Shown one piece after another: positions 16,926 through 19,132 of a stretch of 33,822 nt of DNA. Numbering within the stretch: position 1 is the first letter of the stretch; every line of letters starts with the position of its first letter. The notes below the pieces were generated by a model, which made no database searches, was not told the origin of the DNA, and saw nothing but the letters and a program-made list of their open reading frames with translations. Source of the stretch: Planctomycetes bacterium GWC2_45_44 (lineage in GTDB: Bacteria > Planctomycetota > Phycisphaerae > Sedimentisphaerales > UBA12454); contig MHXU01000085.1 of NCBI GenBank assembly GCA_001824555.1, positions 1 through 33,822 of the forward strand, read 5' to 3'. Position numbers and translations under genes: made by a program.

Positions 16926-17603
16926 TTACGCTGCTATCGTTGCGCTGACGGTTTCGGACCATGGTCCTTTTTCGACGCCGGTCTTGACCCATCGCAGCAT
17001 ATAATGAGCCGTCTTGCCGCCACTCTTGCCATCATATTCGGCAACATACGGACTGGCCGTATCCAATGATAAAAAGGTAAGGCCATCGGCACTGGTCGGA
17101 GCCGCCTCACCCGCAGCGGCAATCGAAACCCAAATCTCACAGCCCATAACGCCTGCCGGTTTGGCACGCTTTGTCGGGGTCGATTCATCAGAAAAACGAA
17201 TCTCATGACGCAGACGCTGACTGGTATCGACCACTCCTATCGGCCTTGTCGTAAGACCGCCGACTGCCATCGTCTTGATGGTATCAGCTACGGTAATACC
17301 AAGAGCTGCCCGCTCGGCATCATTAACACTGGCAGATACCTGAAGTCTCTGCGCTAACTGCCTTATCGCAGTCTCGAGAGCATCGCGACTGTCATCCTTT
17401 GCCTGACGTGCCGATTGTGATGTCTGCTGGGCAGTAACATTAGCCGTCATTTTTACAGCAAAATCAGTATTGGCCGCCGATAGTGGAATCGTATCGGGGG
17501 GCATCAGACCCAAATCGGGGAGATGGGTGTTGGCATAGGTAATAAAGTTGTTCACCCATGCCTGAAATGCTGTGTCTGAACCTGGAATGTAATCTTTTGA
17601 CAT
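16926..17603 (-). CDS. Hypothetical protein, 225 aa, with C-terminal FN3-like strand pattern
   Basis: I do not recognise a named family. The ATG at 17603 has a GAAAGG ribosome-binding site. The protein is soluble with no signal peptide. It has an N-terminal segment with aromatic residues (DTAFQAWVNNFITYANTHL), an Ala/Gln-rich predicted helix at about 55-95 and a TKRAKPAGVMGCEIWVSIA strand region. The end is YMLRWVKTGVEKGPWSETVSATI, which resembles the last strands of a fibronectin type III domain (R-W-x-x-x-G-x-x-G-P-W-S). It stands alone: its own terminator follows and 7-nt repeat arrays flank it, so it looks like an independent cassette rather than part of the polysaccharide operon. Its base composition looks more G+C-rich than the assembly genes. 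Confidence 0.75.
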   Translation of the reverse strand: MSKDYIPGSDTAFQAWVNNFITYANTHLPDLGLMPPDTIPLSAANTDFAVKMTANVTAQQTSQSARQAKDDSRDALETAIRQLAQRLQVSASVNDAERAALGITVADTIKTMAVGGLTTRPIGVVDTSQRLRHEIRFSDESTPTKRAKPAGVMGCEIWVSIAAAGEAAPTSADGLTFLSLDTASPYVAEYDGKSGGKTAHYMLRWVKTGVEKGPWSETVSATIAA

Positions 17604-17701
17604 TTTCTAAAACCTTTCATTAAAACAGTTAAACATTGATGCCCCACACATTGCGGAACTATTCAGTGTTGCTAAACGATGGTAGTTAGTATTATAGTAT
17701 T

Positions 17702-17940
17702 TAGTAGCCATTAGACAATAGTCAGTAGATAGCAGTCAGATATCAGATGTCAGACTTCAGAAATCAGCTTTCAGTTGTCAGCTTTCAGTTTTTTATAGCC
17801 ACAAAGGCACAAAGACACAATATCAAGAATTCAGTTATCAGTTTTCAGCGGTCAGACTTCAGAAATCAGAAATCAGTTATCAGCACAGCTTTTTACTCTA
17901 ACCTTCTGATGGCTGATTACTGAAAACTATTTCCAACTGC
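17702..17940. repeat. 7-nt-phased repeat arrays filling the spacer 17604-17959
   Basis: Two blocks keep a 7-base period: 17702-17795 (for example CAGATAT, CAGATGT, CAGACTT, CAGAAAT, CAGCTTT, CAGTTGT, CAGCTTT) and 17829-17940. Between them is CACAAAGGCACAAAGACACAA, a different 8-nt-phased repeat. No coding potential or promoter was found in this 355-bp spacer. Confidence 0.85.
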
Positions 17941-17959: not shown

Positions 17960-18283
17960 TTAGGTAATTTCTAATGCGGAATTTAATATTTCAGAAAGAA
18001 TACTGCCTTGAATACAATTATTATACTCATCCCAGAAAAAACATTTTGGTTCAATATTTATGTCGATATCCCCGGCAAAATGGAATAATTTTGCAGCAAG
18101 CTTTAGCCGTTGTTTATGGTCGGGGTAATCAACAAAAACAGCAACATCAATATCGCTGTCAATTCGCGCAGAGCCTTTTGCGTAGGAGCCGTACAATAAA
18201 ACTTTCCGGACTGGAAGTTCCCTGCTGACACATTCACCGAATCTCTTTACAGATTCTTTTACTTCTTGTAAGCTTCGAGCCAT
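17960..18283 (-). CDS. MNT-type minimal nucleotidyltransferase (partner of HEPN)
   Basis: This protein of about 107 aa belongs to the PF01909 nucleotidyltransferase group. It shows the full catalytic signature G-S-x10-D-x-D in GSYAKGSARIDSDID, followed by VAVFVDYP. I chose the ATG at 18283 (MARSLQEVKES) because GGAG lies about 10 nt upstream. An ATG at 18301 is also in frame. The gene overlaps the HEPN gene upstream by about 25 nt, so the two are translationally coupled. In known pairs the nucleotidyltransferase either neutralises the HEPN protein by nucleotidylation (MntA/HepT) or forms a two-subunit enzyme with it (HI0073/HI0074). Which applies here is open. Confidence 0.88.
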   Translation of the reverse strand: MARSLQEVKESVKRFGECVSRELPVRKVLLYGSYAKGSARIDSDIDVAVFVDYPDHKQRLKLAAKLFHFAGDIDINIEPKCFFWDEYNNCIQGSILSEILNSALEIT

Positions 18284-18654
18284 TCTATAATCTCCGTACA
18301 TTCTTCGAGTATCTGCTTAGCGTCTTTTTGATTTATCGAGGATTTCATATCTTCAAGCGTCTCTGTATATCTCGATTCTATATAGTACGCATTGAGCCTG
18401 TCAAACAGGCTTATTTGTTCCTCACTGCATTTATCATAAAAACTAAGCGGTTTCGCAATCTTTCGCAGATTATGAGTATATGGAGGCGTCTGCTCCGTTT
18501 CCTTAACAAATATACCTTTTAAAGTTTTTTCAACGGCCTGCTGACACATAAAAGCAACATACAGAAACCTTCCGCCGGCAAGCATAACTTCAGCAGAGTC
18601 CAAATCGTATTTTGCCAGTTCATACCAATTCTGAATTATTTCATTCTTTTTCAT
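18259..18654 (-). CDS. HEPN domain protein (partner of MNT)
   Basis: A 131-aa all-alpha protein of PF05168 type: WYELAKYDLDSAEVML (helix 1), GRFLYVAFMCQQAVEKTLKG (helix 2), the conserved P-x-x-H-N-L near residue 58-62, and AYYIESRYTE near 89-98. The last motif corresponds to the A/S-R-Y-P of this subgroup. I see no R-x4-6-H ribonuclease motif of the HepT type, so toxicity by RNA cleavage cannot be assumed. The start ATG at 18654 lies 15 bp downstream (in transcription) of the 129-bp element at 18670-18798, which also precedes the HEPN fragment at the left edge. Confidence 0.88.
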   Translation of the reverse strand: MKKNEIIQNWYELAKYDLDSAEVMLAGGRFLYVAFMCQQAVEKTLKGIFVKETEQTPPYTHNLRKIAKPLSFYDKCSEEQISLFDRLNAYYIESRYTETLEDMKSSINQKDAKQILEECTEIIEWLEAYKK

Positions 18655-18669
18655 TTTTAACCACTGATT

Positions 18670-18798
18670 ACGCTGTTTTTTGCCACGAAGGCATCCGCCG
18701 TCGCCATCCTACTTCGCAAGGCTACTAAGGAACCGGCTATGGCGGGACAAGCGAAGACACAAAGAAACTGACAACTGACTGCTGATAGCTGAAAACTA
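18670..18798. repeat. 129-bp HEPN-upstream element, copy 2
   Basis: This is the gapless partner of 134-262, with about four mismatches by eye. A 61-bp GC-rich insert (from GCATCCGCCG to GGCGGGACAAG) interrupts a CACGAAGACACAAAG repeat and is flanked by CGAAG on both sides. Inside the insert GTCGCCAT and ATGGCGGGAC can pair imperfectly. The CTGATAGCTGAAAACTA end belongs to the 7-nt-phased family. Confidence 0.85.
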
Positions 18799-18842
18799 TT
18801 TCTTACTTCTAACTCTTGAAAGCTGACCGCTGATTGCTGACA
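18769..18842. repeat. 7-nt-phased repeat array
   Basis: CTGACTG, CTGATAG, CTGAAAA, CTATTTC, then CTGACCG, CTGATTG, CTGACAT. This is the complementary orientation of the CAGnnnT arrays elsewhere, and its left part is shared with the end of the 129-bp element. Confidence 0.75.
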
Positions 18843-18898
18843 TCAGAACGCTTTTTTTGCATTTTTAGGCCAAAAACGCAGTTTTATAAGGCCGACAG

Positions 18899-19132
18899 TC
18901 ATCGGCGGGACTCCGCGGGTCATCCACTGCCTCCCGCCATTCATCCGCCGCCTCCTGTGGGTCATCCGCGGGAATCAGTGGGTCATCGGCTGCTATCCGC
19001 CAATCATCGTCGGGCACCGGGAATCATCCACTGCCTCCCGCTATTCATTCGCGGGCTTCAGTGAATCATCCACCGGCCTCCGCCAGCCATCGGCGGGTTC
19101 TGCGAATCCTCCACTCCAAAGAGCCAATCATC
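18899..19132. repeat. 21-nt-period TCATC array with partly alternating inverted units
   Basis: TCATC (or one-base variants) starts at 18899, 18920, 18941, 18962, 18983, 19004, 19024, 19045, 19066, 19087, 19107 and 19128. The spacing is therefore 21 nt with two 20-nt steps. The 15-16-nt parts between are G-rich in some units (GCGGGAATCAGTGGG) and near reverse complements in others (CCACTGCCTCCCGC), so neighbouring units can fold on each other. The block is clearly more G+C-rich than its surroundings. It is not CRISPR-like, because the units are too short and have no unique spacers. Confidence 0.85.

Follow-up and report, generated by a model that had tools for sequence, protein, structure and literature searches.

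Palindromic arrays with a 21-nt period lie upstream of an FN3-like gene family in planctomycete bacteria

A row of short inverted repeats in Planctomycetes bacterium GWC2_45_44 belongs to an apparently undescribed element that is widespread in planctomycete bacteria, in which a mostly non-coding array of dyad-symmetric units with a constant 21-nt period is positioned upstream of a gene from one protein family. An earlier note on this DNA had missed this association, and also that the constant part of the arrays is the period and not the sequence TCATC, and that the pairing has no RNA-like bias towards G–U. The most likely, though tentative, reading is that the array would serve as a helically phased, cis-acting DNA platform of the downstream family gene.

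The array and its locus

The window analysed here is the whole stretch of 33,822 nucleotides of contig MHXU01000085.1 (C85). Followed in the direction in which the anchor reads GATGA, it holds the array, some 240 bp containing a tail motif and heptamers, a HEPN-domain gene, a nucleotidyltransferase gene, more heptamers, and then the family gene, with the following features:

16926..17603, minus strand: array-associated family gene of 225 aa (xDYIPxSDxxFxxWxxNF ... GPWSETVSATI), with N-terminal helices and a C-terminal FN3-like domain
17667..17815, no strand assigned: 7-nt TCAGNNN/CTGANNN repeats directly upstream of the family gene, with periods 14 and 21
17960..18301, minus strand: nucleotidyltransferase (MNT-like) gene overlapping the HEPN gene (PF18765, E 1.7e-10)
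18259..18654, minus strand: HEPN-domain gene between the array and the family gene (PF05168, E 1.3e-26)
18862..18879, minus strand: GCGTTTTTGGCCTAAAAA motif adjoining the array; its top three genomic matches each lie next to an array (C85, C38 and C164)
18899..19132, minus strand: 12-unit array with a 21-nt period and two steps of 20

The array is upstream of the family gene at a distance of 1.3 kb, with the HEPN–MNT pair between them. This pair is probably a later insertion, and unrelated genes likewise separate the array from the family gene on contig C142 of Planctomycetota bacterium LacPavin_0920_SED2 (G131). The 7-nt CTGANNN/TCAGNNN direct repeats occur in both orientations at 17667–17815 and 18752–18845, and resemble the TAACTGA repeats described in Beggiatoaceae, Cyanobacteria and Bacteroidetes (PMC4679880); the suggestion that they share a common mechanism with the array is unsupported.

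The initial description of twelve TCATC anchors with a 21-nt spacing and two 20-nt steps is confirmed, with anchors starting at 18899, 18920, 18941, 18962, 18983, 19004, 19024, 19045, 19066, 19087, 19107 and 19128 (nine steps of 21 nt and two of 20). Nine of the twelve are exact and the others carry one change each (TCATT at 19045, CCATC at 19087 and TCCTC at 19107). Anchor triples 21 nt apart were found five times in the window and never in 100 dinucleotide shuffles of it, and the block is also richer in G+C than its surroundings, as had been noted (62% inside compared to 39–41% beside). However, the units do not alternate in orientation as had been proposed, as the anchor keeps one orientation in all twelve. 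The alternating look arises because each unit, when read on the minus strand, is an inverted repeat centred on the anchor (a 5-nt arm, a GATGAYY loop, the complementary 5-nt arm and a 4-nt linker), and the G-rich and C-rich neighbours of the anchors are the two arms of these repeats.

Copies in this genome and in relatives

Five arrays were identified in this genome (2.93 Mb in 180 contigs), located in the window, on C26, C38 and C69, and, in a short form, on C164. Those on C26, C38 and C69 are orphan arrays without a family gene, and the GCGTTTTTGGCCTAAAAA tail is found on the 3' side of three of the five. We note that the sister genome G001 has no array at the place following the orthologue of the C38 neighbour gene, and that another dispersed repeat, some 250 nt long and with many genomic copies (72–81% identity plus shorter pieces), ends just before the C38 array (L026:8619-8870). 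C164 carries the second family gene of the genome, which is frameshifted and follows a different 21-nt array of its own (L152:6790-7460), while two GTTTCACGTGAAAC-like sites, which are parS-like, lie within 150 nt of each other on contig C33 (L115:1320-1460).

The dispersal of the arrays and the presence of two Y1_Tnp genes in this genome would suit mobile palindromes of the REP/RAYT type moved by a Y1 transposase, but both of these RAYT-like genes (L109:1930-2300 and L110:1410-2030) have unrelated palindromes of their own on either side (TTTAGCCGCC..GGCGGCTAAA) and the arrays accompany a different gene family, so that this explanation is largely refuted and is the least probable of those considered here.

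Further arrays were sought with BLAST in 148 relatives and with a three-hairpin covariance model (R1) in 161 genomes of the order and 392 of the phylum. The absence of other occurrences, which the earlier note had named among its grounds for refutation, is contradicted, as arrays are present elsewhere in this genome, in the sister species and across the phylum, with related arrays retaining the loop in about ten genomes of the order plus the four further copies in this genome. Among these related arrays the GATGAYY loop and the period are constant and the arms change in step, giving arm pairs such as CAACG/CGTTG, CTACG/CGTAG, GTACG/CGTAT, CAGTG/CACTG, CCGCC/GGCGG, GGAGCG/TGCTCC and CCCCCTG/CAGGGGG. 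Other types of array were also seen, including 22-nt-period arrays near 21-nt arrays in distant planctomycetes (L149:6370-6720 and L151:8150-8490), and a different, AGCGTGATATGTCATAAAGTA-type 21-nt array (L139:1266-1625 and L137:9159-9480) which in L137 is joined directly to a GATGA array.

Association with one gene family

Several arrays lie 30–60 nt upstream of genes resembling the window gene at 16926–17603 and are on the same strand. Within the order (approximately 160 genomes), the array was found in about ten genomes and the gene in about ten, with eight common to both (the model hits in G026, G053 and G063, which are false or coding, were left out of this count by inspection). When the upstream sequence of every homologue was read, a 21-nt-period array was found for nearly all of them, usually of another sequence and with locus-specific arms (GGAGT..ACTCC in G005, CGTTG..CAACG in G020, AGTAT..ATACT in G221, ACCAG..CTGGT in G377 and ATGTTC..GAACAT in G460).

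This association was also evident in a set of 42 loci found via the protein, none of which had been found via an array. The best upstream period was 21 in 31 of these, including 23 above the per-sequence shuffle threshold, and 20 in three more, and period 21 was seen downstream in none of 38. Similarly, among distinct genes whose upstream sequence was long enough, a strong lag of 21 was found upstream in 44/68 compared to 0/63 downstream; the other upstream periods among the 68 were 20 in three genes and 14 in the window gene, where the immediate upstream sequence is the heptamer repeat. A few 22-nt arrays also occur, as do orphan 21-nt-period arrays without the gene. Neighbouring genes mostly differ between loci, and the unit is therefore the array plus one gene.

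The arrays as a class are not in general coding, with 35 open frames across them on the sense strand compared to 33.8 expected, and no open sense frame in eight of 31 arrays; on this basis we rejected a coding heptapeptide repeat. GATGA arrays retrieved from other phyla by a pattern scan are by eye mostly in-frame DDxxxxx coding repeats, and none has the family gene. An origin of the array or gene in phage, plasmids or viruses was rejected for lack of a match, as the gene is absent from phage, plasmid and viral-contig collections at the sensitivity used and three viral pattern hits lack arrays of at least four units. A hairpin chain in 3'UTRs was also rejected, since orphan arrays have no fixed orientation to neighbouring genes.

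The family was found in 17 of the 392 genomes sampled from the phylum, and some of the 17 carry at least seven copies. The protein has no match in Pfam and none of note in NCBIfam, PHROG or PADLOC. AlphaFold2 predicts four helices followed by a C-terminal beta sandwich (pLDDT 83.7), which Foldseek matches to fibronectin III domains, and no DNA-binding domain is recognisable in the model. At L148:8106-8801, the N-terminal region of the family is fused behind a GIY-YIG-looking stretch (GVYRLVYRT..YNGETDDLYKTLCGHL), an appearance without confirmation by Pfam.

Dyad symmetry and covariation

Of the arm cells of 113 distinct units, 74% are paired compared to 62% when the arms are re-dealt (z 8.5), and pairing is also in excess within arrays (z 3.0); the signal within units is weak when this genome is taken by itself (p 0.015). 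As choosing the dyad centre on the same data inflates the palindrome score, the centre was learned on alternate units and tested on the rest (odd/even cross-validation). In this test of 41 arrays, 65% of held-out stem cells were Watson–Crick and held-out pairing exceeded that of column shuffles by z 5.4. Arm changes are paired across units, in agreement with the earlier suggestion of short hairpins, and the compensatory changes between units which had been named as support for structure are present. Symmetry is usual but not universal, as three arrays (L176, L182 and L175) show little when held out.

The covariation is Watson–Crick and strand-neutral. G–U pairs (162 observed compared to 182 expected) are not tolerated better than A–C (128 compared to 135), which suggests that pairing is probably kept at the DNA level, unlike selection on an RNA helix, and we lean towards DNA over RNA for this reason.

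An RNA role is nonetheless possible, and ranked second is the rather unlikely explanation that the array forms a multi-hairpin 5' untranslated region in the transcript, with GATGA on the sense strand, where the hairpins would bind a protein or control the translation or stability of the family mRNA. In gene-adjacent copies GATGA is on the strand of the gene, and for 11 of 45 arrays the distance from the array end to the start codon is at most 60 nt, so that some arrays are probably transcribed. Sense RNA also folds slightly better than antisense in 35 of 45 arrays (p 0.0008). Folding both strands of the window array, as had been recommended, gave z −4.1 for the sense strand and −2.3 for the other; however, G–U pairs are not in excess over A–C, as RNA pairing would favour. 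Furthermore, the folding advantage tracks G+T content too and a downstream control leans the same way, and a fixed 21-nt step is not needed by RNA hairpins.

We regard a CsrA sponge, in which GGATGA in hairpin loops is predicted to bind CsrA as in CsrB, as very improbable. Although csrA is present in the genome and many units read GGATGA, about 40% of the units of the genome have no G before GATGA (it is found in 24/42), this G swaps for C together with its partner, and the loops of arrays at other loci are unrelated.

A phased DNA platform as the preferred explanation

Our preferred explanation is that the array is a cis-acting element working as DNA, in a two-part locus consisting of a row of dyad-symmetric units with a 21-bp period followed by the FN3-like family gene on the same strand. 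Two turns of B-DNA span 21 bp, which would place all the palindromes on one face of the helix; there they could serve as a phased platform, either for hairpin or cruciform extrusion or for a protein that is dimeric or oligomeric and may be the family product itself. Such a platform may set the expression of the family gene, and whole 21-bp units would be gained or lost, by which the phase would be kept. The upstream-only period of 21, the co-occurrence of array and gene, and sequences that vary while the period and dyad persist all support a DNA platform, as do the non-coding frames, the strand-neutral Watson–Crick covariation and the exact one-unit difference between orthologous arrays. Against it are the arrays close to a start codon (11/45), the orphan arrays, the lack of a recognisable DNA-binding domain in the predicted protein, the fact that covarying arms are unnecessary for a classical dimer site, and the few loci with period 20 as well as the existence of 22-nt arrays.

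Ranked third, and more unlikely still than a transcribed leader, is a mutational element without function, made by tandem copying of 21 bp and by replication template switching between the arms, in which case the array would merely accompany the gene. Template switching is a known mechanism which makes and restores perfect hairpin arms (PMC8794818), and strand-neutral Watson–Crick covariation, the existence of orphan arrays, and clustered arm changes between orthologues are all in keeping with this origin. It does not explain why an array is upstream of nearly every family member and downstream of none, or why a period of 21 is kept irrespective of sequence. The orthologues in question are the arrays of G066 (CAJVYN010000011) and G139 (CAJVYK010000040), which differ by the loss of one exact 21-nt unit, and where two closely spaced changes within a single arm make the CCGCC/GGCGG palindrome perfect again; these differences fit the DNA platform, the RNA leader and a mutational origin alike.

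It is possible, if somewhat doubtful, that these loci represent a new kind of bacterial locus in which the family is always accompanied by a phased palindromic array, with the period and symmetry, not the sequence, under selection and the architecture of the DNA or of its hairpins, not a motif, recognised by the protein or a partner.

Comparison with known systems

Rfam covariance models gave no match in the window at the gathering score, and we found no description of such arrays in open-access PMC papers, in agreement with the earlier remark that no element of this design was known. The arrays lack the defining features of TIGR-Tas, REP/RAYT, TAACTGA heptamers and CsrB, and apparently also those of iterons. 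They also differ from CRISPR in that the units are diverged copies without spacers and not identical repeats with unique spacers. Iterons of plasmid origins and partition sites are direct repeats of about 20–22 bp on one helix face, with one sequence per array and one Rep or Par protein. The arrays here are alike in repeat length, helix face and position beside a gene, sometimes in AT-rich DNA, but their arms vary within arrays, and no initiator, Rep or Par gene was seen on inspection of the ORFs listed for array contigs. The CsrB and CsrC sponge RNAs are rows of hairpins, many with GGAUG, as here, but in our arrays the GGA is not kept and arrays of other loci have unrelated loops.

TIGR-Tas (PMC12045711) is similar in having an array of 5–15 units next to one protein gene, with sequences kept within a locus and different between loci, and some versions are stem-loop arrays. 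However, its units carry 36-nt dual-spacer guides whereas ours are degenerate 21-nt copies without spacers, and its protein has a Nop domain whereas the family protein, which has no Pfam match, is modelled as helices plus an FN3-like domain. REP/BIME elements with RAYT transposases (PMC3733652) are also short, clustered intergenic palindromes, but the array here has a fixed 21-nt head-to-tail arrangement, no GTAG or CGTC tag, and another associated gene. The TAACTGA heptamers (PMC4679880) are likewise intergenic tandem repeats upstream of genes, and similar heptamers flank the window array, but they have 7-nt units without dyad symmetry, a constant sequence, and many unrelated genes downstream.

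A repeat length that is fixed while the sequence is free is unusual for a cis-element, and here it is tied, throughout a phylum, to a single family of uncharacterised proteins. A functional link would provide a handle on the family and a test of sequence-independent, geometry-based recognition of DNA or hairpins, and if the link is mutational, the arrays would be a natural laboratory for the making and keeping of palindromes.
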